Shown: positions 1,961 to 61,133 of the stretch, one piece after another
How the letters are laid out: the number at the start of each line of letters is the position of its first letter
How positions within the stretch are numbered: the first letter of the stretch is position 1
From: Bryoerythrophyllum caledonicum
Lineage: Eukaryota > Streptophyta > Bryopsida > Pottiales > Pottiaceae
DNA: 64,000 bases
Direction of reading: 5' to 3'
Assembly (NCBI GenBank): GCA_963971425.1
Contig: OZ020524.1
Span: forward strand, 7,629,845 to 7,693,844
Made by a program: the position numbers and the translations under genes
The notes under the pieces: model-generated
Databases searched by the model: none
Told to the model about the DNA's origin: nothing
The model's input: the letters and a program-made list of their open reading frames with translations, nothing else

Positions 1961-3403
1961 TTAACCCTTTACTGCCTAGGAAGCCTGAAATGGGACTCCG
2001 GAGGTGCTAAAACTCAATTTGTATGAAATTCATGAGGAATTAGGCTTCAAGATACCAGGTTCAGATTTGCCACACATTACATGAACACTCTCCAACAATC
2101 ATATCATGGTTTGGAGTTATAGAACTCTTGAAAAAGCTAGGAATACAACAAAAAATACATCAAATACACTAAAATATAGTGAATATAGTGAATATAGTGA
2201 ATACCACGCCACATACTTTGTTGTATTTCACACACATGCACATTGATTTTTGTCTTAAATTTTGATTGAACTTTTTCATTAAGATATTCTTCATTGTTTT
2301 GTGATTGTTGATCTCTCTCCTCACATACAAAACTTCCGTTTTGATTCGTATAAGGTTGGAACATTTTTCTATACAATCAAGTAGGAAAAAGCAAAAAAAT
2401 CACCGGTAGTTGTGTATAAATATTTTCTTCACATATGATATGTCAATGCGAAGCTATCAACATAGTGCACATGTGAACCGCTCTAATTCAAAGTAAAAAA
2501 ATTCTTGCAAGAATATATTGATGGTTAAAGTAGTACACCCTCCAAAATCCATGGTTCTCACTATCAATATACGGTAACTTTAAACACTTTATTCTATTTT
2601 GTCAACTATTGGATGTTGTGCAAAATTTCCCCAAAGTTTAGGTCATGGGTTAAGTTTGATTTTGTAAGGTTAGATATTAATATTAGGCATTGTATTTCCA
2701 TCAAATCCGGTTCAAAGAAAAAAATCAATAGAAAAACCAACATGGAAAAACCAAGATTTCTAGTTAAGCCATCAAGAATCAGGTTGTGAAGTCCAGATTT
2801 GTGCACACATTACATGAACACTACAAAAACCGTATCATGATTTGGAGTTAAAGAACTCATGGAAAAGCCAAGAGTACAATTCAAAATACATCACATACAC
2901 TAAAATTCAGTGAATAACATGCCACATACTATGTTGTATTTCATTCACATGCAAAATGATTTTGGTATTAAATTTTGGTATTAAATTTTGGTTGAAATTT
3001 GTCTATACGAGATTCTTGATTGTTCTGTGATTGTTGATCTCTCTCATCGCATACAAAACTTTCCTTTCGTTTCGTATGAGTTTGGAACAATTTTGTATAC
3101 AATCAATCAGACAAAAGTTTTAAAATCATCAATAATCATGTAGAAATGGTTTCTTCACATATGATATGTCAATGCAAAGCTGTATCATTACCAATATGCA
3201 GTAACTTTAAACACTATAATCGAATCCATCAACCGTTGGATGTTGTGCAATTTTCCTCCAAAGTTTAGGTCATTGTTTGAGTCAAGTTTTGTAAGGTTGG
3301 ATACTAAAATTAGGCATCATATTTCCTTAGAAGTTACCTCAAAGAAAACAATCAACACATTTCTTGGTTTTGGAAAAACATGGCATGGGTGCTAAAGGAT
3401 TAA
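1961..3403. mobile_element. TTAA element, group 1, probably two fused copies
   Basis: It starts TTAACCCTTTACTGCC and ends GGGTGCTAAAGGATTAA, an inverted pair inside TTAA. A group-1 copy at 42604-43419 is 816 bp, while this one is 1443 bp. Its second part (from about 2780) repeats the first (from about 2080), including CACATACTATGTTGTATTTC, so two copies or a partial duplication appear joined. No ORF of substance. TTAA target duplication with CCC/GGG tips is the hallmark of piggyBac-type elements; assignment rests only on the ends. Confidence 0.7.
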
Positions 3404-4323
3404 TCCCTAAAGGATCAAGTGTCCATTTGATAAAATAGAAGAACTTTGGTCCCCAAAGGAGACACGCTTGAATATAGTGTTTGTTCATTCTCCTCACTAA
3501 GCCTATGGCCACAAGACATAGATTAGTGTGATAGAACTACTTCCTTCTTTCAAGGATAATCACTTTTCACCACTAAGTGCTTCCCTACACTAAGTGCCTT
3601 AGAAACAACCAACAATAGTATAATAGGACTACTAGCCTCCACTGTACTTTGACTCAAAATAATTACTTATGAATTGTTACTGTGAATTGTACAGTTTTTA
3701 TGGATGTATGTTCCGCCTTGTGTTAGGTAATTGGAGGTAGGAATGCACAAGTAATGGAGGTGTTTGGGATAAGGGAAATGGACTTGCCATGTCTAGGATA
3801 TAGAAAGTAGCCATTTACTTAGGAAAGCAATTTATTTTATTTTAATGAGAAATGATTGTTGGATTTGAAATTCAAACAATCAATAAAATTATTATGCCTT
3901 CATCTGTAATTATAATTTTTTAAAGAAAGGTAAAATCCAAGACATGGCATAATAATTTTTGAGTAAGTGCAATGATTCTTGCTAAGAGCTTTCCTATACT
4001 GCTACCCACCTTTAAAAAGTGCACTATTCACTCTAGAGTACTACTACTCAATTCTATAGTACCCTGCCAAGCTTTCCCAAACTCAAGCTTTTGATGTTTG
4101 AAGCACCATAACTTTTCCGTACAAGTCCAAAAAAAAGGGGAAAAAATATTGCGGCAAAGAGAAGCCACATTCCTATTCACACTCAAAAAATTCAAATTGT
4201 TTTTTTCAAGCTTGAATTTTTAGGATCCTGCTCAAACTCGATTTGTATCTCCCTAATTGTCCTGTAGGGGTTAATGAATGGAGTAGAGATTCCTATAAAA
4301 TGCCTTTGTCATGTAGGGGTTAA
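3400..4323. mobile_element. TTAA element, group 2, carrying a SINE fragment
   Basis: It starts TTAATCCCTAAAGGATCAAG, sharing its TTAA with the preceding element, and ends TGTAGGGGTTAA at 4320-4323; an inner GGGGTTAA at 4267-4274 is an alternative end. The core (about 3640-4130) recurs in inverted form at 12838-13575 and in part at 36770-37457 and 45590-46900. A reversed SINE tail sits at 3440-3612. Non-coding. Confidence 0.6.
3440..3612 (-). mobile_element. 3' part of a tRNA-related SINE
   Basis: Read on the minus strand, this stretch matches the body of the SINE at 48866-49872: TAAGGCACTTAGTGTAGGGA, then the block ending in AATGAACAAACACTATATTC. The tRNA-like head is absent here. The match runs across both sites where MITEs interrupt the other copy, showing the uninterrupted form. 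Confidence 0.65.
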
Positions 4324-4326
4324 CCC

Positions 4327-5134
4327 TTAAATCCTTTACCGCCCAGATATGTTTATGGAAAAACCAAGAATTCTGCTGATTTTTTTCTTTGCACCGGATT
4401 TGATGGAAATACAATGCCTAATATTAATATCTAACCTTACAAAATTGAATTTAACCCATGACCTAAACTTTGGAGAAATTTTGCACAACATCCAACGGTT
4501 GATGGAATAGATTATAGTGTTTAAAGTTACCGTATATTGGTAGTGAAACCTGTGGATTTTGGAGGGTGTACTACTTTAACCATCAATATATTCTTGCAAG
4601 AATTTTTTTACTTTGAATTAGAGCAGTTCACATGTGCACTAGGTCGATAGCTTGGCATTGACATATCATATGCGAGGAAAATATTTATACACAATTATTG
4701 GTGATTTTTTTTTCTTTTTTCTACTTGATTGTATACAAAAATGTTCCAACCTTATACGAATTAAAACGGAAGTTTCGCATGTGAAGAGAGAGATCAACAA
4801 TTACAAACAATGAAGAATGTCTCAAAGACAAAGTTCAATCAAAATTTAAGACCAATATCAATGTGCATGTGTGTGAAATACAACATAGTATGTGGCATAG
4901 TATTCACTATATTCACTGTATTTGAGTGTATTTGGAGTATTTTGTGTTGTATTCCTACCTTTTCCAAAAGTTTAATATATCCAAACCATGATCTGATTGT
5001 TGGAGAGTGTTTGTTTATTGAGGGGGCAAATCTAAACCTTGTATCTCAAAGCCTAGTTCCTCATGGATTTCATGCAATTTAGTTTTAGCACCTCCGGAGT
5101 CCCATTTCGGGCTTCCTCGGCTCTAAAGGGTTAA
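4327..5134. mobile_element. TTAA element, group 1, reverse orientation
   Basis: It starts TTAAATCCTTTACCGCCCAG and ends GGCTCTAAAGGGTTAA (5131-5134). Length 808 bp, close to the 816 bp of the copy at 42604. The interior is the reverse complement of the 1961 and 42604 copies, for example the CACCTCCGGAGTCCCATTTC block near its right end. Non-coding; the 90-residue ORF inside is a by-product of the repeat. Confidence 0.8.
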
Positions 5135-5427
5135 GGCCAATCGACCATATATGGGTCGATTATGGACAAAAACCTTTACAGAAAGTGCTACACGCCACCT
5201 CAAAGGAAATAATAGACCATGACTTAGAGGGGGAAGAAGATGGGCATCTATTGAGACCATTTCCACCACAATCGGTGCAAGCATGGCCAAGCTATAGTAT
5301 TTTCCGTAAAATGAGTTCGTAGATGTTTATGCTGAAATGTACTAGCTGCATAGATGTCACTCTACATGATCTAGAACTCTCACACATCCTCACAGGCTGA
5401 AAAAGCTCATCCGCCTTAAAGGGTTAA
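5131..5427. mobile_element. TTAA element, group 4 (about 300 bp)
   Basis: It runs from TTAAGGCCAATCGACC, sharing TTAA with the previous element, to CCGCCTTAAAGGGTTAA. Homologous copies are at 33569-33863 and 5771-6697, the last with an insertion. Shared interior text includes ACATGATCTAGAAC. The right end read backwards (TTAACCCTTTAAGGCGG) matches the left-end consensus CCCTTYAAGGCC. Non-coding. Confidence 0.7.
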
Positions 5428-7602: not shown

Positions 7603-8534
7603 TTAACCCCTTAAGGCCCAAGAGTCCCCTCGAGGGACTCTTGAAGGTTTAGGCACGTTCTTGTGGTGTCAATTTGTAACATTCTTTTTTGAATTTTTTA
7701 CTGTAGATGGTCATTGCTAAAATCTTTGTGTGAGTCCAATTTTTTTCTTAAATCCGACATTCTATGCAAAAGTTATAGGGTTCTCACTTTCAAACTAGGA
7801 GAGCGGGATTATCAGGCACCTCCAAAAACTTTTACTAGGACACTTAATACTAGAAAAAAAAATTATTTCCTTTCATATTGTGAAGAAAATCTCTTGTCTT
7901 AAGTGGAAAATAGCATAATAATCTAAGTCAAACATTTTCAGAGATTATCACACTCTGCCGGGCAAGGTACCCAAAAACATCTTCTTTTCCACATAAAACT
8001 ATGAGATCTTCATATTTCTTACATTTTATTTTAACTACAACAAAATGTGGTCTAAATCTTCATATTCACCACTTGGATTATAGTTCTATAACATATTTAG
8101 TTCACAAACAAATACAACGTGGATTGGCAATTTTGAACCTCCACTCCTTGCACATTTATTTTGAATATGCTACACCCCTTTTCTACCTCTAAAAAATGAT
8201 GTGCAAAGAAATAACATCATGATTAACATGATGGTAATGTTTTCAGACCTTGTGTAGTGCAAAAATTTGACACCACGTGAAGTCAAAGTCCGCTGATCCA
8301 CTTACTGCAGGGAAGAAAAAGAACGGTTTTCTCTACTTCAAACACTATAATCTTTCAATCTATGCGGTCAAGTTTTATGAAATTTTGTGAGGACGTTTAC
8401 CAACAAGTCTTGATTTAGATCCTACGGTTAGATGTAGAAATAAAAGGTTTTGATTACCTCATTACTCATTGCACTTGAACGAGCAATTTCAAAGTATTTT
8501 TGGTGTGAAAATGCCTTGGGCCTTGAGGGGTTAA
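7603..8534. mobile_element. TTAA element, group 3 (932 bp)
   Basis: It starts TTAACCCCTTAAGGCCCAAG and its right end read backwards is TTAACCCCTCAAGGCCCAAG, a near-perfect 20-base inverted pair including TTAA. The interior shares blocks with the elements at 43988, 47905, 38332 and 60169, for example CTCCACTCCTTGCACA and CACACTCTGCCGGGCAAGGT. Non-coding. It has the best preserved ends of group 3. Confidence 0.85.
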
Positions 8535-9315: not shown

Positions 9316-10460
9316 TTACCCCCTAGTAAAACACGTGGGCAAGTACCTAAAAGGGCCGCGCGCGTACCTGCTAGGGCCGCACGCGTATCTAAAAGAGCCG
9401 CGCACATACCTAACAAGGTCGCGCGCGTACCTAAAGGGGCCAGGCGCATACGCCAAAAAAAATAATATTAATTTTTTTTTGGTACGCGCGTAGTCTTTAT
9501 CAGCATGCGCCCGACCTTTCGGATTGGGCGCATACGTACAAGGGTTGGGCGCATATGAACAAGGGTTGGACGCGTATGAACAAGGGTAGGGCACGTACCA
9601 TAAAGGGTTGGGCGCGTACGAACAAAGGCTGCGCGCGCACGCGAAAAAATTAAATTAATAGAAAATAAAAAATAAAGAAATATGTATGTGCCCAGTCCTT
9701 GTAAGCATGCGCCCGACCTTTTGGATCGGGCGCATATGTACAAGGGCTGGGCGCGTATGAACAAGGGTTGCACGCACGCACTAAGAATTTTTTTTTTGGC
9801 ATATGCGCCCAACCCCTTAAGGTACGCGTGCGGCCCTGTTAGGTACACGCCCCGCCCCTTAATGTATGCGCGGCCCTTTTAGGTATGCGTGCGGCCCCTT
9901 GAGGGACCCGCCCGGTTCCTTTAGGGACGCGTCCGACTCCTTTAGGGACGCGTCCGACTCCTTTAGGGACGCGCCCGACTCCTTTAGGGACGCGCCCGAC
10001 CCTTTTAGAGACGCGCATGACCCCTTCTGACCCCTTCAGGCACGCGCCCAACCTCTTTAAGTACGCGCCCAACCCTTTTTAGTTTGCGCCCGACCCTTTT
10101 CAGTATGTGCCCGACCCCTTTAGGTACACGTTGGACCCTTTCGATATACACCCAACTCCTTTTTGGTACGCGTTTGACCCTTTCAAGTACGCGCACGAAC
10201 CAATGGGTACGCGCGTGACCCCTTTGAGTATGCGCCCGACCCTCACTTAGCGAACGCGCACGCGCGACCCAATGGGTACGCGCCCGAGATTATGGGGCAA
10301 ACAATCGAAGGAGGATCGCACATTAAAGGGTCGAGCCCACAACTTGGAGGGTCGCGCGTGTGCGCTCTTGAGGGCCGCACACTCTTTTAATTTTTAAATT
10401 TTAAATATTTATAATATTTAAGCATAAGCGCCTCCACCGCACACGCGACCCTCCACCGTA
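9316..10460. repeat. Degenerate 21-bp GC-rich tandem arrays, left block
   Basis: Units such as GGGACGCGTCCGACTCCTTT plus A repeat at 21-base spacing (clearest 9340-9460 and 9900-10010). They are rich in CG, GCGCGC and the AAGGG/CCCTT motif. Orientation flips within the block, with small palindromes such as GGGCGCAT/ATGCGCCC near 9508 and 9708. Because 21 is a multiple of three, every frame stays open and gives seven-residue repeats such as GRVPKGV or YAPNPCS on both strands; these are not credible proteins. Confidence 0.9.
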
Positions 10461-11232: not shown

Positions 11233-11616
11233 CAAGGATTGCAACAATTGTTTATGTAATAATTGAATCAAATATTGTAAATGTCATTATAGACTCTAAT
11301 TTCCTTATAAACATGGAATGTGTCTTGTGTTCTTGCTTTTTTATTTAAGCAATTGACACAAAATTAATTGTAATGATACTAAGAAGAAGTTGATGCATTA
11401 AAATAAAAATGTAAATGTTGTGTATGCATCTTCATACCTTATACAACTTGCTAAGGTTTCATTGATAGATCTAATTATATATCTAAATCACAATTTCTAG
11501 TTTAAGCATAATAAGCACAATTTAAATAATTTGTTTAAGAACTTCAAGTATTTAAATGTCTGGACATGTAAGTAAGGACATTTAAAGTAAGAACAATTAA
11601 ATACCTAAAGTTCCTA

Positions 11617-12165
11617 AAGGTGCATTGCGCGTTCCTAAAGGGATTGAGCGCGTTCCTGAAGGGGTCGGGCGCATCTCTATAGGGGTCGGGCACGCACCTG
11701 AAGGGGCCGGGCGCGTACGTACAAGGGTTGGGCGCATACGCCTGGAAAAAATTTAAAAAATTTAAGAAAAATTGTTAGCGTACGCGCCCAACCCTTATTT
11801 GTGTGTGCCCAGTTCTTGTTCGTACTCGCCTAGCCCTTGTGTGTACGCACCTAGCCCTTGTATGTACGCGCCCGATCCGAAAGGTCGGGCGCATGCTTAC
11901 AAGGGCTAGGCGCGTACAAATACAAAAATAAAAATAAAATGTTTTTTTGTGGCGTACGCACCCAACCCTTGTTTGTTCGCGACCAATCCAAATGGTCGGG
12001 TGCATGCTTATAAAGGCTGGGCGCATACAAAAAAAAATATATATATATATATATATTTTGGGCGTGCGCGCTCGATTCCTTTAGGTACGCACGCAGCCCT
12101 GCTAGGTACGCGCTTGGCCACTTTAAGTACGCGCCCAACCCTTGTTTGTACGCGCGCGACCTTGT
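11617..12165. repeat. Degenerate 21-bp GC-rich tandem arrays, right block
   Basis: Same unit family as at 9316-10460 (CGCGTAC next to AAGGGTTGGGCG), mixed in orientation, with a short AT run near 12038-12056. It lies just inside the right terminal repeat of the large element, mirroring the left block. Confidence 0.85.
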
Positions 12166-15411: not shown

Positions 15412-18396
15412 TGTTGGAACCTAGTTTTTGAAGACTTGTAGTCTTTGTATAAGTCAAGGGAAGAATGGGTGGTGTTTTATCAAAAAGTAGAAACACCCCC
15501 ATTGTAAGAAGATAGTTTTACTAAAAACTATCGTAAGTCCTCGTTACCTAAGTCCAATGGTCGGAACCGTAACCGAGTCTAACGGTCATAACCGTAACCG
15601 AGTCCAACGGTCATAACCGGCCGCGGGTTCGGATTCAAGTAATGATTACTGGACCAGGAATACATAATTAATCCCAGGGTTCTTCCTCTCATCTTTCTTA
15701 GTGTGTTTGAGGTTGGTTAGCGGCAAGCGAGCGTGGGTGGCTGAGGATTTGTGTGTGAGAGCGTTGTAGCCAGGATTGCTGCCGTTTGCGAGTTGGGAAT
15801 CAAGAAGTGCGGATTAGGATTTGTGTGTGGATTCATTTGCATATCTTTTGGGAAGATCCCGGGTTTGAATTCAGTCGAGGGATTGTGGGGATGACGCTTA
15901 AGAAGGCGACCAACAACAGGGCGGCGACTGAGGCGATTGAAAATCTCCGGACTGTGGTTTCGGTGGTTCCTGAATCCAAGAGCGGCTAGAAGGCGTTGGA
16001 TGCGGATCGGAAGAGGATGAGCTACTTTGGATTCCGTGAGCAGCCATGGAGTTTCAGGGACGACTTCTTGGTCCGAGAGTTGATTGAGAGAGTCTCCAAC
16101 AAGCTCAAGGGCACCAATCGTGGCAGGTCAAAGAAGTGGACCTCGACAATGTGGAGCGCCGTGTACGGGTTTTCAACACGTGGAGAAGGTATGTGCTCAC
16201 GTCAAAAGTCATTCATTGATGGCAAGTTCACCCGGAAAGCAAATCCGAAGGATGTGCTGACCGAGGCAAACTGCAAAGATCCAAGGGTAAGGAAGGTGAT
16301 GGAATTCTTACTTCCAATCCTATATCCGGATTGGCCCTCTAAGACGACCATGACATTGGCCAACATGATCTGGGGAGCACACACAGGTGAAAGGCAGGTA
16401 GCGTGGAAAGATATTGTAAAGGAATTAGTGGGGAAATTCCTAACCGGATTGGGGAAGGTACGACCTACCCCAATCTCCCCATTCTTCTATCTTCTCTTCT
16501 AGCACGAGGACCTGCTGCACGACAAACGAGAAGACCGCCTATGAGACGGCCAAGGTGTTGGCAAGCCAGGGTTGGAAGAATGCGGAACCCAATGCGAAAC
16601 CTGAACAAGAACCGGATTTGGATTCATCCAAAGACGACGTTCAACGGACATCAACCAACGCGAGGAAGAGGAGGAAGCAGACCGAGAGGTGCAACAGTAC
16701 ACCTCCGATCCGCAGTAAGGTCAGTAAGAAGTGAGAGGAGGACGATCCTTTTGACATGATTGCGGAAGGGTACGAGAAGACCAAAGAAACCTACGAGCGG
16801 ATCAAAGTGATCCTGGCTCAAGCGTGCCCAATTGCGGGAGACGTGGCAGTGGATGAGCTATGCGGGCATCTGGAGAGGAACCTGCAATCCCGGAACATGC
16901 AGAAACTGGAGGCTCACCTTGTCTCTTTGGAGAACCACAACCAGAAGATGTGGATGGCCATGGACAAGAAGGATGAAGAGTTGGCTGCGGCGATGGGGAA
17001 AGCTAACGATTTTGCACTTGCTCTCACCCGTGTAACAAAGTTTGTACAGCAACCGGGTGACGTGTTGCTGAAGGCGAGGTTGTTCGACGTTTTCATCAAG
17101 GCCCGGAAACTTGATGGTCCGATAGCAAAGAAGCTTGTTAGGGTGCTGGTGGAGTACCATTCAAAGATGGAGAAGATATTTGAGGAATGCCTGAAGATCC
17201 ACGCAGGAATCTTCCGCGACATTGTGAAAGGTAAACGGAAGGTGTCTCTCGACTCAGAGCCGACGGAGGCCCTCCCGGAAGTGCTTAAGGTTTCGGAACC
17301 GGAAGCCGGATTCCGAATTGCTGGTCTAGATCTCAAGAAACAAAAGGACGAGCTCTCTCCGTTATCTTAGCTGAAGGTGGGGGTTTGGAAGGAGAAGACG
17401 AGCAAGGTAGAGGACGACACTCCGGACTCACGATTTCCAAGACAAGGACTATTTCCGTTTCCGAAAGTGCAACCTCTAAGCGGCAAACTCAGTCAACTTC
17501 ACAGACTGTCACACAAGAAGTGGAAGAGAGGACGCTTGCGAGCCAACGGATCGAGGTACAAAAGCCGGAGGACAAGGACAAAGAGAAAGAAGAAGCATCA
17601 TCCTGAGTTGAAACTTCGGTGGTGAAGCTTTTGGATTCTTCAGAGGAGGAAGAAGATCGGGATCAAGAATACAAGGACTAGGGCCACAACGTGTCTTGTG
17701 CTCAAGAAACTAGCCGTAGGTAGTTAGAAGTCTAGTGGTAGGGTTAAACAGTCACAACGGTGACTCGATAATCAGGTTTTTTACCCGAAATTGGAAATTG
17801 TTCCGGGAAAGGTAGATCTGATTCGTAACTTTCGGATCTGGTCGGTGGTAGTCAGAAGTGTCAGGTCAGCTGTAAGGGACCGTTTTGTTCAATGTGTAGG
17901 TGGTCATCATGGGAATGAGGTGTCCACGAGGCTCATCGTGGGGTCCGAGTTTTGTATTTTGCTCCCCGAATGGAGGGTAATTAGTTAGTAGTTGCGAGGT
18001 TGTTAGGGTCTCGTTAGTTGACCTAATTGTGAGAGCGTTGGGAGATTGCGAACCCGGGTGACTTGGGTTTTGGTGTGTAGGTTGGACGCCTTGCATGGCC
18101 ACCACTACAGCTAGAATCCGATTTCCAATTTTAGTGTTAGGAAGAGAGTTTGCAAGCAACGAACTACGGGGCATTGTTCATAAGGTTGTATGAGATGCGC
18201 TGCCCATTTTTAATGTTAAGTTTGTGTCCTTAATCTTGACACCTCTCTATCTCTTTTGTGTGAGCTCCGAAGTGGTCCTTATCACGGACATACCCCATTT
18301 GGAATGATTGTGTAACCATCTTGAAGCGTCGATTGCAGTGGAAAGGAGAGGCGAGGGATCCAGGTTTCTCTAGGATTCCGCGAGAGGGTCAGAAAT
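15412..18396 (+). mobile_element. Non-autonomous LTR-type retroelement (family epsilon), broken
   Basis: The start TGTTGGAACCTAGTTTTT matches the start of the minus-strand copy at 61134-63773, whose boundary is supported by the repeat it interrupts. Parts in order: leader to about 15900; a core domain (about 15996-16500) with WTSTMW, VYGF, DPRVRKVMEFL and GKVRPTPISP; an acidic, lysine/arginine-rich linker; a coiled-coil part (about 16756-17370) with DVLLKARLFD; a basic, Glu-rich tail to about 17680; then non-coding DNA. No reverse transcriptase, integrase or zinc knuckle is seen, so it resembles gag-only or LARD-type elements. Broken, with a few breaks. The right limit is set only by the next element. 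Confidence 0.55.
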
Positions 18397-33568: not shown

Positions 33569-33863
33569 TTAACCCTTCAAGGCCGATCAACCATATATGG
33601 GTCAATTCTAGATAGAAATCTTTATGGAAAGCTCCACATGCCACCTCAAAGGAAAAAATTGACCATGACTTAGAGGTGGAGGAAGATGTCCATCTTTTGA
33701 GACCATCGCCACCGCAATCGGTGCAAGCATCGACGAGCTATAGTAATTTCCGTGAAACAAGTTCAAAGATTTTTATTTTGAAATGTAATCATTGTGTAGA
33801 TGCCATTCTACATGATCTAGAACACTCATAGATCCTCATGCCAAAAATGCTCATTGGCCTTAA
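33569..33863. mobile_element. TTAA element, group 4 (295 bp)
   Basis: It starts TTAACCCTTCAAGGCC and ends CTCATTGGCCTTAA, where the next TTAA element begins. It is homologous throughout to 5131-5427 (ACCATATATGGGTC, CACCTCAAAGGAAA). The usual final AGGGTTAA is missing, consistent with the neighbour inserting at the inner TTAA. Confidence 0.75.
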
Positions 33864-34792
33864 TCCCTAAGGACCACGACCGTTTTCGCTCTAAAACCAG
33901 TCCAAAATTGCAAGTGCCAAAAAGAGACTTGAAAATCAAATTTTAAAGTGAATTTCGGATTTAAACCGTAATTTCTTAAAATAGACTTCTATATAAACAT
34001 GCCATAAAATTTTGGTTGCAATCCACCGCACGGATTGATAGACTTTAGTGTATAAAGTCAAAACAATGGTTCATTTTCTTCCCTGCGTTGAGTAGATCAG
34101 CAAACTTTGACTTCACTTTGTATCAAATTTTCGCATTGTACAAGGTCTAAACCTTTTACCATTGTCTTAAGCATGATGTTATTTCCCAACACACCAATTT
34201 TTAGAGGTAATAAAGGGGTGTAGCATATTCAAAACAAGTGTGCAAGGAGTGGAGGTTCAAAAATTGCCATTTCACGTTTTATTTTTTTGTGAACTACGTA
34301 TGCATTCAAATGATAATCCAAACGGTCAATAAGAAGGTTTTCACCACATATTGTTGTTGAAAAAATAAAAAGTGAAAAATATGAAGATCTCTAGGTTTTA
34401 TGTAGAAAAGATGAAGTTTTTTTCCCCTATTGCCCGACAATGTGTGAAAATGTTTGACTTGGAATAAAATGCCTTTTTACACTAAAGACAAGATTTTTTT
34501 TGGAAAACTTCTCGAGAAAGGAAATATTCTTTATATGTGTGAAAAATCTCAATGTCAATAGAAACTTTTGTCAAAAAATTTGGAGGTGCCGGGTGTCCCC
34601 ACTTGTGGCTTTAAGTGGTACTAACTTTTAAACCACAAATCCAAAAAATAGAATAAAAATATGTCCACGAAGCCCTTATCAGAGGCAATCTAGAATGAAA
34701 ATTTCAGAGAAAAAGGATTTTTTTTCGAATTTTAGGAACATGCCCGAAATCAGAAATCCCCCCGAAGGAGACTCTGGTCCTTTAGGGGTTAA
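33860..34792. mobile_element. TTAA element, group 3 left with group 5 right end
   Basis: It starts TTAATCCCTAAGGACCACG and ends CTGGTCCTTTAGGGGTTAA (34789-34792); a second AAAGGGTTAA follows to 34800. The left and middle match group 3 (GACTTCACTTTGTATCAAAT, CAAGGAGTGGAGGTTC). The right ~180 bp match group 5 (GTACTAACTTTTAAACCACA). It looks like an exchange or nested insertion between groups. Non-coding. Confidence 0.7.
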
Positions 34793-34800
34793 AGGGTTAA

Positions 34801-35366: not shown

Positions 35367-35575
35367 TTAACCCCTAAAGGACCAAAGTCTCCTTCGGGGG
35401 GATTTTTTTATTTTTGGGCAGGTTCCTAAAATTTGAAAAAAATCAATTTTCTCTGAAAGTTTTATGGTAGATTGCCTTTGATAAGAGCTTCGTGGACATA
35501 TTTTTTATTTTTTTTTTGGATTTGTGGTTTGAAAGTTAGTACCACTTATAGTTTTTGAGGGAAATTGTCAATGTA
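35367..35575. mobile_element. Group 5 TTAA element, right end lost
   Basis: It starts TTAACCCCTAAAGGACCAAA and matches 11010-11232 through GAGGGAAATTGTCAA, then stops short of the expected GGGGTTAA. Confidence 0.75.
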
Positions 35576-35889
35576 GTCTCTACAAAACAAAACCATTAAT
35601 ATAAGAAAGTAGAAATAAGTTATTCTTATATTTTTAAAAATTACATGCACTTTATCCATCCTACTAACTTTGTTACTTTAACTAATAAAACATAGTTCTT
35701 AAAACAAAATAAATTAAATTATTTATTGTTTAAATAAGATGGATTGTTGGATGTATGTCACAAAAGAAACTATATGTAATGAATATAAAATCTCATTCTA
35801 AAACCTAAATTATATTTTTAAAAGCAGCTGAACAAAAACTGATGGGCAAGAGAGCCCGCACGGCGGGGGATGCAACGTTGTGGCAATTG
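35576..35889. other. Unexplained AT-rich spacer
   Basis: Nothing recognised. Confidence 0.5.
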
Positions 35890-36128
35890 TTAACCCTTAA
35901 ACGACAAATCTTTCTATAGAAATTTTATCGAATCTTTGAATTTTAACACCCATATTTAGCTACCATTTACATTCTAATTATATCACATGATTTTTATTAT
36001 ACATTCAAAGAATTTTGAAAAAGAAAAATCATTCAAATGAATATCCATCACTAGAAAATCATGGTCAAAGTGAGTTGAAAAATGAAAAAACCAAGCCCCT
36101 CGAGCTGGCAAATCCGTTTAAGGGTTAA
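35890..36128. mobile_element. Short TTAA element, group 6 (239 bp)
   Basis: It starts TTAACCCTTAAACGACAAAT and its right end read backwards is TTAACCCTTAAACGGATTTG: fourteen identical bases including TTAA. The interior is unlike the other groups. Non-coding. Confidence 0.8.
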
Positions 36129-36576
36129 GCAAGCTAGGTTGGTGTTGTTTGCATCCACAAAGCGTCTTTGTGAGTTTGAAACTCCAATTGCGCCAGCCCG
36201 CCTTGTGTTGTCCTCGCAATGTCTGTTTCATATTCAAGCACCCATTCTTAGCAGCGCGTTGGATTCAGCCAATTTTTTATTATTATTTTATCAAAGGTCG
36301 CTTAGCATGCATGAAAATATTAGGACATCCTCCCTTAGAATGGCCTCCCAAATTTGTTGTCTTTGGCCCGAAATAGTATATTTTGGTGGGGTCCAACGAC
36401 ATATTTTCACTGTTTAGCTTGTTGGAGTGACTGTTGGAGTGCGCAACGCAAATGCTCTAATGGAATGGAAGTGTGATGGATATACCCCAATTTCATAAAT
36501 GTCAATAATGAGTTTTGGTTGATTACAAGGGGAGTTATCATAGTTGCACTAGAGCAATGTGTTTTTATTTGATTAT
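36129..36576. other. Unexplained spacer
   Basis: A 111-residue ORF on the plus strand (36082-36417) has no recognised motif and overlaps the preceding element. No gene called. Confidence 0.45.
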
Positions 36577-37457
36577 TTGACCTTTGAATTCCCAAGAGTC
36601 CTCTTGAAGGATTATTGAAGGTTAGGGTAGGTTTCTACCGTGTCAATTTGTAACATTCCTCTTTGAAGTCTCTATTGTAGATGAAATTACTAAAAGCTTT
36701 GTAGGGGTACAATTTTTTTCTAAATCCGACAATGAGAACTTTATGGTGCTCGAAGTAGGTTCTTACGGAAGGCGGGCATGTTGGACATGGTACTATAGAG
36801 TTGAATAGTACTACCGTAGAACTTGAATAATACTATTATAGAGTTTAGTAGTGCAATTTTTTTAGGTAGGTAGTAGTGAAGGAAAAGTTCTTTGCAACCT
36901 TCATTGCTTTTACTAAAAAAATGCGTAGAAATAAATGATTTTAATTTTCTTCAAACCTTTTTTTTTTTCTTAATAGAAGACATGGTTTTTTAGTTCATTA
37001 TTTAGATTTCAAATTGAACAGTTATTTTCTTATTTGAAAATCAAATTGCTTTCCTAAGAAAATGGCTACTTCTATATCCTTAGTTATTGCAAGTCCATTT
37101 TTCTTATCCCAAACACGTCCACTATATGTGATTTTATGTGTGCAATGACCTACCACAAGGTACAACATAGATCCATAAAATTTACGAAATGTGTAGTAGA
37201 AAATATGCCATTATCCTTGCTAACCCTATCCACAAAGGGAAGAAAAAATCCACATTACATTTTTCATATGCATGTGTCTTATGATCTATGGGGTCAAATT
37301 TTACAAAACATTTTGAGTGTCTTCTTGTAGTAATCAACTTGAAGATCCTACTATTGAAAAATAGTAAGACGTTTAAATCAGTCGTGCAACGTCTCAACTC
37401 ATTGTGTTAGTTTTGGGTGGTTTTTGTGTAACAAGGTCTTGGGAATTTAGGGGTTAA
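36577..37457. mobile_element. TTAA element, group 3 left joined to group 2 right
   Basis: The left ~190 bp match the start of the 7603 element (CCCAAGAGTCC, TGTCAATTTGTAACATTC). The remainder matches group 2 in the orientation of 12838-13575 (TACTATAGAGTTGAATAGTA, ATGACCTACCACAAG). The right end is ATTTAGGGGTTAA; the left TTAA is worn to TTGA. Confidence 0.6.
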
Positions 37458-38331
37458 ACTATTATTTATTTTATTATTTTATTATATTATTTTATTATTT
37501 ATTTGATCTAGAACAAAAGAGGCAAGGCCCACCTAAGCTCAAAAAGAATTGTGCAATGTACACCTTAGTAGTTACATGACCTAGACATGCAGAAATAGAT
37601 ATTTGAAGCTGCTTACCCTGCATCACATTTTTGTGACTGGATTGTTGGCTAAAGCTCATTAGATTTTTGCACTTTTGAGTGCAAGGAAACCTCAGTCAAT
37701 ACGTATGATGGATCAGCCTTTGCCTCTTGAAGAAAATGTCGTGCATTACATTCAATTGCCACTCACAAAGTGGGTGCAGTTGCTGAGTGAGAGTGATGTT
37801 TTTGTTGCATCCATGTGAGAAGCACGCTAGGGACAGCCGTCCAAGAGGCCGGCACCATTGAAATCCTTTCACGCAACCTTGTTTGGATCACCACCGCCGC
37901 CGCCCTACTTTATTTCTTTGAGAAGTGGGTGGGGAAAATGACTTCGAACGATCCATGGTCGGTCCAATCCAAATTTTATGAATTTTCCCTATATCATTTT
38001 GTTGAGAATTATGGAGTTTAGAGTTTTGAGAAAGTCAAAACAGTAAAAAGTATGAGTGAGAAATAAAGTTCTACACTGTGTGAAAATAAGTTTTTTATCT
38101 AAATCTTTCAACAAGGGAATACAAGGTTTTAGAGTTCAACAAAACTGTTTTGATTTGTATGATTTTCATCTACTGATTGTGGTATAAATCATTCTCATCA
38201 TCATTGCGTAAACCACATTGTGTTATGCTGAGACTAAGTAATTGTGTGTAGCCCAACTTGCTGATTTTTGAGCATCATATGCTAACAGAATCATATCTGT
38301 TATTCAAGAAATTAGAAATCTTTCTAGTATA
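37458..38331. other. Unexplained spacer
   Basis: A TTTTATTATT-rich run lies at 37460-37505. A 68-residue ORF (37815-38021) has no recognised motif. No gene called. Confidence 0.45.
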
Positions 38332-39614
38332 ATGACCCCTAAGGTACCATGACAGTTTCACACTAAAAACACTTCAAATTTGTTGAATTCTAGTGCGATG
38401 TATATGGAAGGAAACAAAAACTTTTATTCCTAGATTTGGCCGTAGGATCTCAATTAAAACTTATTAAGTAACATACTTGTAAATTTTCATAATCTTTGAC
38501 CGTACGGATTGAAATATTATAGTGTTTGAAGTCAAGATAATGGTTATTTTCTTCCCTGCGTTGAGAGGATCAACAGACTTTGACTTCACTTGGTCTCAAA
38601 TTTTTGCACTACACAAGGTCTATATCCATAACCATTGTGTTAAGCATGATTTTAGTTCCTTATACACCAATTTTTAGAGGTAAAGGAAGGGTGTAGCATA
38701 TTCAGAACAATTGTGCAAGGAGTGGAGGTTCAAAAACTGGCAACTCACATTTTAATCTTTTGTGAACCTAATATGTTTTAGATTTGATTATCTAAATGGT
38801 CAACAAGAAGGTTTACACCACATACTGTTGTGGAAAAAATAAAAAGTAAATAATATGATCTCTAAGTACTATGTATAAAGAAAGAAATTTTTTTGGTAAA
38901 TTGCCCGACAATGTGTTACAATGTGTGAAAATGTTTGACTGGGTTAATATGCTTTTTTTCACTAGGTACAAGGATTTTTTTATATTCTATTCAAGGAAAT
39001 AATATTACTTGCTAGTATTGAAAATCTCACACATAATAGAGTGTCCTAGCAAAAGTTTTTGGAGGTGCCTGACGTGCGTAACGGATACTGAACAAAATAT
39101 GGACAAATGAAAGTCCAGAAATAGTGGTCGGCCGCCAGCCGAGAGCTGCCAAAGGGTCTTATCAATAATCTTCTGAAGTGCCTAACTCACTCATTGTCTA
39201 TCCAAATCGAGCATATGAGATGTTTTTTGGCATCTACGGAAAATGTGGATGTCAAAAAACACCTCATAAGCTTGATTTGGACAAAATTTGAGTAAGTTAT
39301 GACCGTTTGAAATTTTCATTTGAAGAGACGCATCGGCTGGCAGCCGATAAGAATTCAGAGTCTAATCGGTCCACAAATGGTGATTTTCTCCAAATTTTGT
39401 TGTATATCCGATGCGTGCTTTCCATGTTTGAAATTCAAAATCCTGTAACTTTTTCATTACATGTCAAATGTAGAAAAAAATTGTTCTCGCACTGAGGTTT
39501 TAGTAATGCCCATTTACATAGAAAAATGCAAAGAAGAATGTTAGAAATTGACACCAGAGGAACATGACCAAACTTAAAAATCTCTTTTTTTACACTTGGT
39601 CCATTAGGGGTTAA
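38332..39614. mobile_element. TTAA element, group 3 reverse, carrying a foldback insert
   Basis: The left end ATGACCCCTAAGGTACCATG is worn at the TTAA. The right end is TTGGTCCATTAGGGGTTAA (39611-39614). The interior runs parallel to 60169-61133 (GACTTCACTTGGT, GAAAATGTTTGACT). Taking out the 332-bp insert at 39080-39411 and one TSD copy leaves about 945 bp, the usual group-3 length. Confidence 0.75.
39075..39416. mobile_element. Foldback MITE with TGCGT duplication (332 bp)
   Basis: Element 39080-39411 lies between two TGCGT copies (39075-39079, 39412-39416). The uninterrupted site is seen in the related element near 60920. Ends pair: AACGGATACTGAACAAAAT with TCGGATATACAACAAAAT read backwards. 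Nested inside are a second pair (GGCCGCCAGCCGAGAG with CATCGGCTGGCAGCCGAT) and a central ~42-bp pair (GAGATGTTTTTTGGCATC with GATGTCAAAAAACACCTC). Most of the element would fold into one long stem. The superfamily is unknown. Confidence 0.75.
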
Positions 39615-42603: not shown

Positions 42604-43419
42604 TTAACCCTTTAGCGCCCAGGAAGCCCGGAATGGGACTCCGGAGGTGCTCAAACTCAATTTGCATGAAATCCATGAGGAATTAGGCTTTGAGATACGA
42701 GGTTCAGATTTGCGCACTCGTTACACGAACACTCTCCAACAATCAGATCATGATTTGGATTTATAGAACCTTGGAAAAGCTAGGAATACAACACAAAATA
42801 CACCAAATACATTCAAATACAGTGAATACAGTGAATACTATGCCACATACTATGTTGTATTTCACACACATGCACATTGCTTTTGGTCTTAAATTTTGAT
42901 TGAACTTGGTCTTTAAGACATTCTTCATTGTTTTGTGATTGTTGATCTCTCTTCTCACATACGAAACTTCCGTTTTGATTCGTATAAGGTTGGAACACTT
43001 TTGTATACAACCAAGTAGAAAAAATTTAAAAAATCACCAATAACTGGGTATAAATATTTTCTTCACATATGATATGTCAATGCAAAGCTATCAACCTAGT
43101 GCACATGTGAACCGCTCTAATTCAAAGTAAAAGAAATCTTGCAAAAATCTATTGATGGTTGAAGTAGTACACCCTCCAAATTCCACAGTTTTCACTACCA
43201 ATATACGGTAACTTTAAACACTATAATCTATTCCATCAACGGCTGGATGTTGTGCAAAATTTCCCCAAAGTTGAGATCATGGGTTAAGTTCAATTTTGTA
43301 AGGTTAGATATTAATATTAGTCATTGTATTTCCATCAATTCCGGTTCAAAGAAAAAAATCAGCAGAATTCTTCGTTTCTCCAGGAGCATCCTTGGGCGCT
43401 AAAGGCGCTAAAGGGTTAA
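42604..43419. mobile_element. TTAA element, group 1, best preserved copy (816 bp)
   Basis: It starts TTAACCCTTTAGCGCCCAGG; the right end read backwards is TTAACCCTTTAGCGCC, followed by a second TTTAGCGCC, so the tip motif is duplicated on the right. TTAA flanks both sides. The interior is shared with 1961-3403 and 4327-5134. Non-coding. Confidence 0.9.
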
Positions 43420-43987: not shown

Positions 43988-44937
43988 TTAACCCCTAAGG
44001 GACCAAGTGTCAAAAATGGGCCTTTTGAAAGTTTGGTCAGGTTCCTATGGTGTCAGTTTCCAACATTCTTCTTTGAAATTTTCACTATAGAAAGACATTA
44101 CCAAGACCTTAATAAGAATATAATTTTTTCCTAAATTGGACATTTGATGAAAAGGTTACAGGGTTTTGAATTTTAAATGGGGAGGGCGGGCACCTTGGGC
44201 ACATCCAAAAACATTTGATAGGACATCTATTGAATGTGAGATTTTTAGTACTCGCAAGTAATATTATTTCCCTTCATATTGTCAAAAAAAAATTCTTGTC
44301 TTTAGTGGAAAATAGCATACCAACCCAAGTCAAACATTTTCACACATTGTCACTCATTGTCGGGCAAGGTACCAAAAAAACTTCTTCTTTTCCACATAAA
44401 ACCTAGGTATCTTTATATTTTTCACTTTTTATTTTTACAACAATATGTAATGTAAACCTTCTTATTAACCATTCGGATTATCGATCAAAAACATATTAAG
44501 TTCAAAAGAAATTAAAATGTGAATTAACAAATTTCGAGCCTCCACTCCTTGCACACTTGTTTTGAATATGCTACACCCCGTCTCTACCTCTAAAAATTGG
44601 TGTGTAAGGAGCTAACATCATGCTTAACAAGATGGTAATGGATTTAGACCTTGTGTAGTGAAATTTTTTGACACCAAGTGAAGTCAAAGTCTGCTGATCC
44701 ACTAAACGCAGGGAAGAAAATGAACCATTTGCTTGACTTCAAACACTATAATCTTTCAATCTGTGCGGTCAAAGTTTATGAAATTTTGTACATGTATTAC
44801 TTAATAAGCCTTTATTGAGATCCTACGGTCAGAACTAAAAATAGAAGTTTTTGTTTCCTTCTTTATTCATTGCACTAGAATCCAACAAATTTGAAGTGTT
44901 TTTGGTGTAAAACTGTCACGGTACCTTGTTGGGGTAA
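43988..44937. mobile_element. TTAA element, group 3 (about 950 bp)
   Basis: It starts TTAACCCCTAAGGGACCAAG and ends CGGTACCTTGTTGGGGTAAA, the right TTAA worn. It runs parallel to 47905-48817 and inverted to 60169-61133. Non-coding. Confidence 0.75.
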
Positions 44938-47904: not shown

Positions 47905-48329
47905 TTAACCCCTAAAGGACCAAGTGTAAAAAAATGGGCTTTTAAAAGTTTGGTTAGGTTCCCATGGTGTCAATTTCTAACATTCCACTTTGAAATTATC
48001 ACTGTAGAAGGACATTACTTAGACCTCAGTGGGAGAATTTATTTTTTCCTAAATTTGACATGTAATGAAAAAGTTATAGGGCTTTGAATTTCAAATGGAG
48101 AGAGCTGGCACTTCACTTCAGGCACCTCCAAAAACTTTTGCTAGGACACTTTATAGAATGTGAGATTTCTAGTACTACCAAATAATAAATTTTCCCTTCA
48201 TAGTGTCAATTTTTTTTGTCTTTAGCGAAAAATAGCATATTAACCTAAATCAAACATTTTCACACATTGTCACACATTGTTGGGCAAGGTATCAAAAAGA
48301 CTTCTTCTTTTCCACATAAAACTTAGAGA

Positions 48330-48386
<57 letters not shown>

Positions 48387-48817
48387 TCCACAACAATATG
48401 TAGTGTTAATATTCTTATTGGCCATTCGGATTATCAATCTAAAACATATAGTAATTTCACAAAAATGCAAATTGGCAATTTTTGAACCTCCACTCCTTGC
48501 ATAGTTCTTTTGAATATACTACACCCCCACGATAAGTAGATCAACAAACTTTGAGTTCACTTGGTGTCAATAATTTACACTACATAAGGTCTAAATCCAT
48601 TACCGTTGTGTTAAGCATGATGTTAGTTCCTTACACACCAAAGTTTAGAGGTAGAGAAATTTGGTGAGTATGTTATATAATAAGCGGTATTTGAGATCCT
48701 ATGGTCAAAACTAGAAATCAAAGTTTCTGTTTCCTTCTTTGTTCATTGCACTATGCACTAGAATCCAACAATTTTGAAGTTTTTGGTGTGAAACCGTCAT
48801 GGTACCTTCGGGGTTGA
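47905..48817. mobile_element. TTAA element, group 3 (about 913 bp)
   Basis: It starts TTAACCCCTAAAGGACCAAG and ends TCATGGTACCTTCGGGGTTGA, the right TTAA worn. The interior is parallel to 43988-44937 and holds a (TA)n expansion at 48332-48387. Non-coding. Confidence 0.8.
48332..48387. repeat. (TA)n microsatellite
   Basis: A nearly pure TA run inside the group-3 element. The YIYIYI ORFs it gives on both strands are not genes. Confidence 0.95.
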
Positions 48818-49131
48818 AGAGATCCGACTTGCATCGAATTGGGACTTTTAGAAGAGGAGAAGCACCACGGCCTTGGTGCAGTGGTTTGGGTCATGGCACA
48901 CCGGTGAGGTGGTTGTGAGTTCAAGTCCTATTGCTGGCGTGGTGCCTACTACCATAGTCCACCCAATTATTGTGGGGGGTCCCAGGCCTCGTTGTATGGG
49001 GACCCACAAAGCCCTTGGGGGAGATGACATGTCGGTTGTCTCTAAGGCAATTAGTGTAGGGAAGCACTTAGTGTAGAAAAGTGTTTATCCTTGAGAGGGG
49101 GGAGTAGTTCTATTACATTAGCCTATGTTAT

Positions 49132-52900: not shown

Positions 52901-52903
52901 TCC

Positions 52904-54318: not shown

Positions 54319-54334
54319 ATGAATCATGATCTCG

Positions 54335-54587: not shown

Positions 54588-54812
<225 letters not shown>

Positions 54813-55179: not shown

Positions 55180-55185
55180 AATAAA
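55180..55185 (+). terminator. Possible poly(A) signal of the VQ gene
   Basis: AATAAA, about 860 bases after the stop, is the first canonical signal I noticed downstream. Plant signals are loose, so earlier sites are possible. Confidence 0.3.
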
Positions 55186-57968: not shown

Positions 57969-58389
57969 TAACTTTGGTATTTAGCATTGGCAACACTAAA
58001 TACGAACACAAAGTTCATTAAATGTCAACATTAGTAGATTTTTGGCGGCGAAAAAAAGTTACATGTATAAATCTAGTGTTATTTCAGAAAATGGATGTCC
58101 AAAAATGAGAACAAGGCAGTGGCTCTTGTTGTAGTGGCACCCAAATTACTACTTCTATGTGGTTGCATTTTCACATTGGAAAGTACATATTCTCACGGCT
58201 CTCCTTTTCCAGCACAAGAATCTGCTTGTTCCGGCCTGAAGAGCCTCCACGACCTTTTCACACAGTAGCGAAGGTACATAGAATTATCAGCTGAATGATA
58301 GACTATATTAGAGCTGCAGATGGATATCTCTCGGAAGCTCTCATAAATCTCACGGAGCTGTAACTTGTGCGTCAATTGCCACAAAAGGG
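57969..58389. other. Unexplained spacer
   Basis: Nothing recognised. Confidence 0.5.
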
Positions 58390-58829
58390 TGCAACCTCCA
58401 AAGAACCAAGTGTCTGTTTGGGGGAAAAATTCTCACATTCGCTGCAATTACCTTTCAAGCCGTATGGTCAAATTTTCAAATCACTTACCACATCATCTTA
58501 TATAAGTTTAGAAGAAGATAATATGATTACATTCTCAAAAAGTTCATCTTTGGAGTTTTTAACCAATGGAGTCAAGATTCCTCTAATATATCTTGTTAAT
58601 TTAGGGATTAATCAATTACAAGATTGAGTGTATCTGTGGGGTAGAAAAGTTTTCACTTTGGCTGTAACTATGTTTCAATCTGTACAGTCAAAATTCACAA
58701 TTTTTACCACACCATCTCTTGTAAGTTTAGAAGAAAATCCTATGGTTACATTCTAATCAAGTTCATATTGACAGTTTTTATTTGATTGGTTGGAGATCCC
58801 CTAAAATGCCTTGGTCCTTAAAGGGTTAA
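58390..58829. mobile_element. TTAA element with an internal duplication (about 440 bp)
   Basis: The right end GCCTTGGTCCTTAAAGGGTTAA lies at 58826-58829. The left is worn (CAACCTCCAAAGAACCAAG, like CCCCTAAAGGACCAAG). The interior is two similar halves: TAAGTTTAGAAGAA followed by ATTACATTCT near 58504, and TAAGTTTAGAAGAA followed by GTTACATTCT near 58722. Confidence 0.55.
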
Positions 58830-58880
58830 AGTGCAAAAAAGCATGGATCAAGTGAGAATTTTTCACCAAGTCCTGGTCCA

Positions 58881-59990
58881 TACTATAGTACCAGGCATGT
58901 CTCATTTGTCCACCCCTGATATGTTTCCACACTACACTACCAGTAACTTTGACACCCTCCCAAGGGAAAAATTGTTATTTTACCATGAAATCTTTGGCAC
59001 AAGATCATTTCTATGTTGACAACATGTGAGCCAAATTTCAACTCCAAAAGAATCACACAAATAGATATAATTCAAAATCTAGCAACATGTGTAGTTGTGA
59101 GAATCATTTAACTCGTGGCCAACTTTGATACACTCCCAAGAATTGAATTTTTTTGTTTTTGCCCATGAAATTTTTAGCATGAGACTATCTCTATATTGAT
59201 CACATGTGTGCCAAATTTGAAGGCTAAAATATATACATATCAAAAAATTTAAAAATTCTCCCAACATGTATAGTTGTCAACTTTGACACCCTCCAAAGGA
59301 TTCAATTTTTTATTTTTCCCATGAGATTTTGGTCATGAGACCATCTCTATGTTGATCATACATGTGATTAATTTCAAGACCAAAAGATACACGAACGAAA
59401 AGAAACAAATCTAAATCTACCAACATGTGTGGTTGTGAGAAGCAATCACGGAAACCATTTCACTATTGCCAACTTTGGCACCCTCTCTAGGTCTGAAAAT
59501 TTGATAATTGACCATTAAATTTTTGGCACAAGATCATCTTCATGTTGATAACATGTGTGCCAAAATTCAAGGCAAGAAGGTGACTACAAAATATCATCTT
59601 CAAAATCCACCAACATATGTAGCTATGAGAAACAATTTTGAATATCTTGTTTTGTATTCATCATGTGGCCTTGAAATTTGGCACACTTGTTACAAACATA
59701 GAGGTGATCTTGTACCAACAATTTCACGGTAAATTATAAAATCAGCTCAAGGGAGGGTGTCAAAGTTGGTAGCTATAAATGGCACACAACATCTTGGTAG
59801 ATTTTGAATATATTATTTTGTATTCATCATTTGGACTTGAATTTTGGCACACATGTTGTCAGTATAGAAGTGATCTTGTGCCAAAAATTTAATGGTGAAT
59901 TGACAATTTTTAGCTCTCAGGTGGGTGTCAAAGTTGGCAGCAGTCTTGTGTGGAAATGTATCAGGGGTGGACAAATGGTACTGTACTGTA
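58881..59990. mobile_element. Foldback element with Tc1-like tips and inner repeats
   Basis: TA flanks 58883-59988. The right end read backwards is CAGTACAGTACC, the tip of the Tc1 element at 31701; the left is CTATAGTACC. Both continue with ATTTGTCCACCCCTGATA. Inside are four direct units of about 158-192 bp starting AACTTTGACACCCTCC-like (58945, 59121, 59279, 59471) and two inverted ones ending near 59780 and 59937. Unit text includes TTTGGCACAAGATCATC. No ORF. It could be a non-autonomous partner of a Tc1 element. Confidence 0.65.
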
Positions 59991-60168
59991 GTTGTGACAT
60001 AGGCATTCTATCATGGTATCTAGATGGAGTCAGGTGCAGTTCTTCAAGTGGGTACACCTGCCCAGAATGTTGTAATGCTAGAATCACGTGAGTACGTTTC
60101 ATCACGGGTGGGAAAGAGTATTATATTGCTTATTTAACTCAGGAGGGATAACCGCGCTTTCTCACCTA
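59991..60168. other. Short spacer
   Basis: Nothing recognised. Confidence 0.5.
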
Positions 60169-61133
60169 TTAACCCCTGAGGTAGTAAGGTATAGTGACGG
60201 TTTCACACCAAAAACACTTTAAAATTGTTGGATTCTTGTGCAATGAATAGAGTCATGTTTCAAAAACATTCATTTCTAGTTTTGACCGTAGGATCTCAAT
60301 AAAGACTTATTAAGTAATAAACTTACAAAATTTCATAAACTTTGACCGCATGGATTGAAAGATTATAGTGTTTGAAGTCAAGGAAATGGTTCATTTTCTT
60401 CCCTGCGTTCTGTGGACCTGTGGATTAGCAGACTTTGACTTCACTTGGTGTCAAATTTTTGCACTACACAAGGTCTAAATCTATTACCATCATGTTAAGC
60501 ATAATGTTAGTTCCTTGTACACCAATTTTTCAAGGTAGAGTAGGGGTGTTGCATATTCAAAACAACTGTGCAAGGAGTCAAGGTTCAAATTTGCCAATTC
60601 AGGCTTTAATTTTTTGTGAACATAATTTGTTTTAGATTGATAATCCAAATAGTCAATATTTTTTTTTACACCACATCTTGTTGTGAAAAAAAAGAAGCAA
60701 AAATAATGAAGATCTCTAGGTTTTATGTGGAGAAGAAGAAGTTTTTTTGGTACCGTGCCCACCAATGAGTGACAATGTGTGAAAATGTTTGACTTGGGAT
60801 GATATGCTATTTTTTACTAAAGACAAGGACATTATTTTAACAATATGAAGGGAAAAAATATTACTTGTGAGTATTGAGAATCTCACATCCAATAGTGTCA
60901 TAACAAAAGTTTTTGGAGGTGCCCGAGGTGCCCGCTCTCCCTATTTGAAATTCAAAACCCTATAAAATTTTCATTAAATGTCCAATTTAGGAAAAAATTA
61001 TTCTCCCACTAAGGTTTTAGTAATACCCTTCTACAGTAAAAATTTCAAAGAGAAATGTTGAAAATTGACACCATAGGAACCTGATCGAACTTTCAAAAAG
61101 CCCATTTTTGACACTTGGTCCTTTAGGAGTTAA
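60169..61133. mobile_element. TTAA element, group 3, reverse (965 bp)
   Basis: It starts TTAACCCCTGAGGTAG and its right end read backwards is TTAACTCCTAAAGGACCAAG. Both TTAA sites are present. The interior is the reverse of 43988-44937 and parallel to 38332-39614. It abuts the retroelement at 61134. Confidence 0.85.

Follow-up and report, generated by a model that had tools for sequence, protein, structure and literature searches.

PiggyBac-type miniature elements in a moss genome and the transposase-bearing elements with which they share their ends

The 64-kb stretch C12:7629845-7693844 (the window) of a moss genome of 437,360,962 bp in 894 contigs carries many short, TTAA-flanked repeats. 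Elsewhere in this genome, transposase genes lie within elements that are bounded by TTAA and have ends of the same kinds, and insertion adds the element plus 4 bp. The window repeats are very probably non-autonomous miniature inverted-repeat transposable elements (MITEs) of piggyBac type, cut and pasted by the DDD transposases (with a triad of aspartates) of full-length elements residing elsewhere in the genome. A first-pass annotation, made from the window alone, had read them as piggyBac elements, largely rightly, as the transposases inside elements with such ends are of the PF13843 type.

Results

Transposase genes and full-length elements

Searching the genome for PF13843 (DDE_Tnp_1_7) gave 120 match rows (best E 6e-81), none of them in the window, and the same search of 14 control genomes gave no matches. 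All rows listed lie above the curated cut-off. Since 116 of 305 first-look candidates were scored, 120 rows are a lower bound for the number of places; at least four transposase genes were counted as two rows each. The first-pass annotation had seen no transposase in the window and had postulated an autonomous source elsewhere in the genome. Both statements hold: the genome-wide search that it had proposed found PF13843 genes enclosed by complete elements with TTAACCC/TTAACCCC tips.

Among the 120 rows, 30 transposases were aligned, and all 30 have the three aspartates of the DDD triad, as read from the alignment. A C-terminal cysteine pattern is also common to these copies, aligned with gaps and with one cysteine replaced in L027. 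Single-linkage grouping of the same 30 copies gave 15 groups at 90% identity, 13 at 70% and 6 at 50%. Stop-to-stop open frames run through the domain for 1059 (L038), 988 (L039), 860 (L024), 841 (L030) and 835 (L040) residues. In the PDB the L039 protein matched Trichoplusia ni (T. ni) piggyBac (6x67, E 1e-34) and piggyBat (9c0f, E 7e-29). Its predicted structure, built from 15 sequences, has a mean predicted local distance difference test score of 56.4; across residues 471-920, 30 of 45 ten-residue blocks score at least 80, and residues 120-466 score below 50. The first 480 residues of L039 gave no Pfam match above the curated cut-off. L039 and L022 represent two distant transposase types, each with a long N-terminal region lacking a Pfam match above the cut-off, and by eye these regions (L039:2469-5432; L022:1788-2327 and 3527-4456) have motifs in common.

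Stretches of 10 kb (one of 9.2 kb) around 20 PF13843 matches were examined for element ends. The transposase gene is enclosed by inverted TTAACCC or TTAACCCC ends in L022, L023, L024 and L034-L040, and likewise in L026 as extended by L043 (10,581 bp), in L029 (7,063 bp) and in L030 (8,559 bp). The right end alone was found in L032/L033, and no complete end pair was settled for L025, L027, L028, L031 and L041 in these stretches. The ends are short inverted repeats starting CCY. L034, L035 and L037 are 5,549-bp copies running from TTAA to TTAA, 99.82-99.91% identical, with unrelated flanks; the L034/L035 alignment extends one base past the element. L036 is related to this group in three stretches (91.6-98.7%). 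L022 and L023 are homologous exactly from TTAA to TTAA (4.9 kb, 97.2%), also with unrelated flanks, and copy comparison set the left ends of L025/L026 and L030/L031 as well. The L034 type appears to have moved recently.

Starting from a TTAA left end that both have, L025 and L026 are 94.8% identical for 9 kb; they contain MITEs, which shows that large composite copies carry nested MITEs along.

Kolobok, Sola3 and PIF/Harbinger transposons also use TTAA or TWA targets, and tips alone are not decisive. It is nevertheless highly improbable that the elements come from a different TTAA-duplicating superfamily (Kolobok, Sola3) or from PIF/Harbinger with TAA/TTA duplication. The transposases lying between such ends are PF13843/piggyBac proteins, and L039 matches piggyBac structures. 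No Kolobok or Sola3 transposase was found inside these ends, the enclosed ones being PF13843 (no genome-wide search was aimed at Kolobok, Sola3 or Harbinger enzymes).

Elements of the window

The motif TTAACCC occurs 31 times in the window versus 11.7 expected, and none of 100 shuffles reached 31. Five inverted TTAAYCC...GGRTTAA pairs (150-1500 bp apart, at least 7 of the 10 following bases matching) were present versus a mean of 0.01 and a maximum of 1 in 200 dinucleotide shuffles. The BLAST comparison of the window with the loci around transposases elsewhere demonstrated that most starts flagged in the first pass belong to repeated families, with alignments ending at or near TTAA. Sixteen elements are recognizable, most of them assigned to families A to D, and TTAA is kept at both ends in 11 of them:

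1961..3403, + strand, family A MITE with an internal duplication, 1443 bp; tips TTAACCCTTTACTGCC / TTAATCCTTTAGCACC; ends nearest the L022 type (27/37, 22/33)
3400..4323, + strand, L026/L038-group MITE, 924 bp; TTAA at 3400-3403 common with the left neighbour, at 4320-4323 with the right one
4320..5427, + strand, family D MITE (D1), 304 bp when closed; split by 4327-5134 at an inner TTAA; joined halves align with D copies
4327..5134, - strand, family A MITE inside family D, 808 bp; TTAA at 4327-4330 and 5131-5134
7603..8534, + strand, MITE, 932 bp; tips TTAACCCCTTAAGGCCC / TTAACCCCTCAAGGCCC; left palindrome centred at bp 25; related empty sites in L044-L049
11010..11232, + strand, family C MITE, 223 bp; both ends match the L029 element (32/38, 29/39)
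33569..34800, + strand, family D MITE (D2), 303 bp when closed; split by 33860-34792; ends nearest the L034 type (28/39, 22/39)
33860..34792, - strand, B-like MITE with one family C-like end, inside family D; 90.8% identical copy in L040
35367..35552, + strand, family C copy, right end lost
35890..36128, + strand, short element, 239 bp; TTAACCCTTAAACG at each end; no second copy among the loci compared
36577..37457, + strand, B-like MITE; left tip mutated (TTGACC), right tip TTAACCCC
38332..39614, - strand, family B MITE, 1283 bp; one tip mutated (ATGACC); ends match the L026 element (32/38, 32/40)
42604..43419, + strand, family A MITE, 816 bp; 90% identical to the L023 copy; ends match the L022 element (30/37, 24/38)
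43988..44937, + strand, family B MITE, right tip mutated; ends match the L026 element (37/40, 29/39)
47905..48818, + strand, family B MITE, right tip mutated; ends match the L026 element (36/39, 29/39)
60169..61133, - strand, family B MITE, 965 bp; ends match the L026 element (38/40, 25/32)

The elements fall into 14 intervals that make up 12,088 bp or 18.9% of the window, close to the rough fifth estimated before. The 18 starts flagged in the first pass fared unevenly. Exact TTAACCC stands at ten of them and TTAATCC at two, but neither at 4327, 5131, 5771, 36577, 38332 and 58390. Of these six, 4327, 36577 and 38332 mark real elements with a mutated tip, 5131 falls on the inner TTAA at which a family D element is interrupted, and no element boundaries could be set for 5771 and 58390. 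The boundaries drawn earlier at 4327/5131 and 33860/34800 had misread nested insertions. Our first pairings by inverted-repeat score (e.g., 1961-5134 and 35367-39614) were abandoned as well, because copy comparison and nesting analysis gave other pairings.

Genome-wide, one 23-base family B tip including TTAA was found in 1,201 copies and one 24-base family A tip in 148 (control 0 for each). When TTAA was not demanded, the family B tip gave 1,204 matches, and TTAA adjoins 88 of the 100 listed. The TTAA sharing between neighbours at 3400-3403 and 4320-4323 suggested a general rule, which was rejected: none of these 88 TTAA flanks runs on into CCC, so no enrichment of such sharing is claimed.

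MITE families and their partner transposase types

The 40 bases inside each MITE end were compared with nine transposase-bearing element types. The best partner of family A was L022 (30/37 and 24/38 for the copy at 42604), of family B L026 (left 36-38 of 39-40, right 25-29 of 32-39 for 43988, 47905 and 60169), of family C L029 (32/38 and 29/39) and of family D L034 (28/39 and 22/39 for D2). The D1 left end also resembles the L034 type (29/38). The right ends of 4327-5134 and D1 had too few aligned bases to count, and the elements at 3400, 7603, 33860 and 36577 lie near several related types with no clear best. Each family would be moved by the transposase type that shares its ends, i.e., A by the L022, B by the L026, C by the L029 and D by the L034 type.

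It could be argued that the MITEs and the piggyBac transposases share convergent TTAACCC tips only, the MITEs being moved otherwise or being unrelated repeats. Outside the ends the MITEs do not match the transposase-bearing part of the L026 element over any long stretch, and families A and D fit their partners less well at the right end. However, the likeness of family B to the L026 element reaches 214 bp at the left end (71-73% for 43988 and 60169; 67 bp at 87% for 47905) and includes 29-59-bp pieces (71-86%) within the last 220 bp at the right. The family C ends match L029 on both sides, and family B and one of the two D copies carry the left palindrome of their partner types, described below. 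We consider convergence highly improbable and the end-sharing piggyBac transposases the probable source of mobility.

The left-end palindrome

In T. ni piggyBac, only one left end is bound by a dimer of the cysteine-rich domain, at a palindrome covering bp 17-33 (PMC7351741). The nine moss element types were scanned for palindromes with perfect arms of at least 6 bases centred in the band 23-28.5, the left end being the 5' side of the transposase. The band was set after a first look at the data, the only value known from outside being 25 (moth). Left ends of seven of the nine types have a palindrome (arms of 6-8 bases) centred at bp 24-28, exactly at bp 25 in four of them. Of the right ends, one of nine has one in the band, and shuffles (n = 400) gave a mean of 0.08 and a maximum of 2.

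The ends thus appear to be asymmetric, with a subterminal palindrome as a putative binding site of the cysteine-rich domain. On account of this palindrome we believe that these elements work like piggyBac and do not merely look like it. The transposase would bind the left palindrome through its cysteine-rich domain, pair both element ends and cut them via a TTAA hairpin; excision would leave a seamless site, and the element would re-insert at TTAA.

Nested insertions and empty target sites

Two insertions in the window can be undone on paper. The family A element 4327-5134 is inserted in an inner TTAA of D1 (4320-4330 plus 5131-5427), and 33860-34792 in an inner TTAA near the opposite end of D2 (33569-33863 plus 34793-34800). 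Removal of both with one TTAA restored complete family D elements of 303-304 bp, whose inverted repeats read TTAACCCTTNAAGGCC or a mutated variant of it; both align with the D copy in L034. Unoccupied single-TTAA versions exist for both sites: the left end of the L034 copy for the first insertion and the right end of D1 for the second. At the site matching the first insertion the left end of D2 reads TCAA, and closed D1 is one base shorter than the L034 copy at the left site.

All three family D copies examined (window 4320-5427 and 33569-34800; L034 8248-8560) have another element at a terminal TTAA; the occupied TTAA is the inner one in both window copies and the outer one in L034. In L050 (C1:6143150-6145900), family A copies stand head to tail. 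The 840-bp unit consists of a truncated element plus flank, two units are identical at 837 of 840 positions, and the array recurs at a spacing of about 17 kb. We rejected TTAA-sharing insertions as the origin of this array, as it is the unit of truncated element and flank that has been duplicated; here a MITE is turning into a satellite.

The joined flanks of 7603-8534 (204 bases) were compared with the genome, giving 43 rows from 40 scored out of 2,037 first-look candidates: two are the window itself, six cover all 204 bases and 35 are partial. The six full-length empty relatives (L044-L049) have a single 4-bp site, with a gapless joint in five and a 3-base gap beside the joint in one. Five older related empty sites, 67-79% identical, have a single 4-bp site at least one base off TTAA.

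A TTAA target is supported by the boundaries of the copies and by the nested insertions; in its strict form, with one intact TTAA, it holds for the nested cases only, the diverged empty relatives having a single, altered site. The empty-site comparison proposed in the first pass was borne out with reservations. In five of the six relatives of 7603-8534 nothing has been added at the single 4-bp site, and both nested insertions can be closed on one TTAA, but the relatives read TTAT, most older sites are off TTAA and one is unclean.

Observations that fit less well

A number of results weigh against a simple piggyBac account. The site reads TTAT in all six full-length empty relatives and TTAA in the occupied 7603-8534 copy, for which reason we assume that the parent copy of this site differed by one base, the change creating the TTAA target. 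Of 66 candidate pairs from the window and the loci, only 5 yielded related empty sites when their flanks were joined, and these sites read TCAA, TTCA, GTGA, TTAT, TCAT, TGAT, TCGA, TTAC or CTAT. The empty site of L026:7481-8263 is not clean and was left out of the support because of an 8-base gap at the joint. As to the ends, 12 of the 100 listed family B ends (of 1,204 matches) lack an adjoining TTAA, and at the right end family B resembles the L026 element in patches only. For L024, L029, L038, L039 and L040 (both ends) and for L030 (right end), the ends were set by matching inverted repeats and not by copy comparison. The palindrome is absent from the left ends of L024 and L030; by the same measure that of T. 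ni has perfect arms of 5 bases, under the required 6, and at 5-base arms two right ends (L026, L030) enter the band. Among eight window MITE copies tested, four have a palindrome in the band; the second D copy, tested separately, has none.

The host genome

The LEAFY gene marks the host as a moss. A LEAFY exon of the same genome is identical at 101 of 106 residues to PDB 4bhk, which we take to be the Physcomitrium protein, the next structures being far lower, and the residues at two diagnostic positions are, we presume, of the moss type. As piggyBac is unexpected in a land plant, assembly contamination from an animal or fungus was considered; the small contigs C162, C384, C621, C645, C749 and C854 hold 6 of the 120 PF13843 rows. 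On the other hand, C1-C15 hold the remaining 114, plant genes lie near some rows (NB-ARC and SAUR frames beside L036 and L037, by eye), one family tip is present more than 1000 times in the genome, and the window itself carries a VQ-motif gene (PF05678). We give contamination next to no weight and treat the piggyBac sequences as native to the moss.

Other features of the window

A frame at 32077-32913 (- strand) has the Tc1/mariner-type domains HTH_Tnp_Tc3_2 and DDE_3. Tc1/mariner-type transposons are uncommon in plants. For the long frames at 15990-17370 (+), 61739-63133 (-) and 26394-28065 (+), the scanned pieces matched nothing in Pfam; by eye the first two are plainly related, and they are perhaps retroelement parts. 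Tandem repeats, mostly of 21 bp, cluster at 9343-10127 and 11610-12069, and a perfect (GA)110 lies at 54590-54809, about 270 bases downstream of the VQ-motif frame.

Discussion

PiggyBac is best known from animals. The moss elements resemble T. ni piggyBac, as far as the structural passages describe it (6x67; PMC7351741), in the PF13843-type transposase with a DDD triad and a C-terminal cysteine motif, the TTAA target, the CCC tips and the left-end palindrome with its centre at bp 25. They differ in being longer (4.2-10.6 kb), in the long N-terminal region of the L039 and L022 proteins and in a palindrome sequence that varies by family, and the protein match is distant. PiggyBat belongs to the same transposase family as L039, but it has an animal host and its match is weaker.

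The angiosperm MITEs called PiggyBac in the relevant section of a review (PMC10004981) are likewise short, TTAA-flanked and of plant origin; there they are grouped by inverted repeats and target site, whereas the moss ones have transposase-bearing partners. The C-fern repeat table, also from a non-seed land plant, has 1,230 PiggyBac entries, 122 kb in total and about 100 bp each, and no transposase is described in that passage (PMC6890710). A general statement, with no plant detail, has piggyBac isolated from insects, fungi and plants (PMC10813416), and members are placed in most eukaryotic lineages in a passage of another paper (PMC9499001). The pertinent part of a switchgrass survey reports no piggyBac (PMC3325252), and the corresponding part of a plant transposable element review includes the superfamily (PMC10794571); giant transposons are covered in part of a further review (PMC6431247). 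In a moss genome paper the matching passage contains the word 'piggybacking' (PMC10619864), and the word piggyBac is absent from the main text of a Physcomitrium transposable element paper (PMC7466625). Among the matches listed from the open literature (including bryophytes, Selaginella, Marchantia and Viridiplantae), no published description of a transposase-bearing piggyBac in a land plant was found. Repbase and subscription papers lie outside this search, and priority is therefore not claimed. The remark in the first-pass annotation that few plant examples are known agrees with the print found in this partial library.

The kind of element is known. The novelty lies in its moss host, in its abundance and diversity, and in full-length copies that are nearly identical. 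What surprises is the abundance together with the apparent recent activity in a land plant. A broader proposal, to which we lend about even credence, is that the piggyBac elements of this land plant form a large population that has been diversifying for a long time, is active to this day and drives well over 1000 MITEs; the 30 copies fall into at least 13 transposase groups at 70% identity, and one group has copies that are 99.9% identical. Each type would read its own left palindrome by its cysteine-rich domain, the docking distance of the moth element being kept and the letters changing by family.

PiggyBac is a widely used genome-engineering tool, and the moss is a source of native plant piggyBac transposases with matched ends. 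Its lineages and near-identical copies let one ask whether piggyBac has long resided in land plants or arrived by horizontal transfer. The differing palindromes at one fixed position form a natural data set for the way in which the cysteine-rich domain reads its site.

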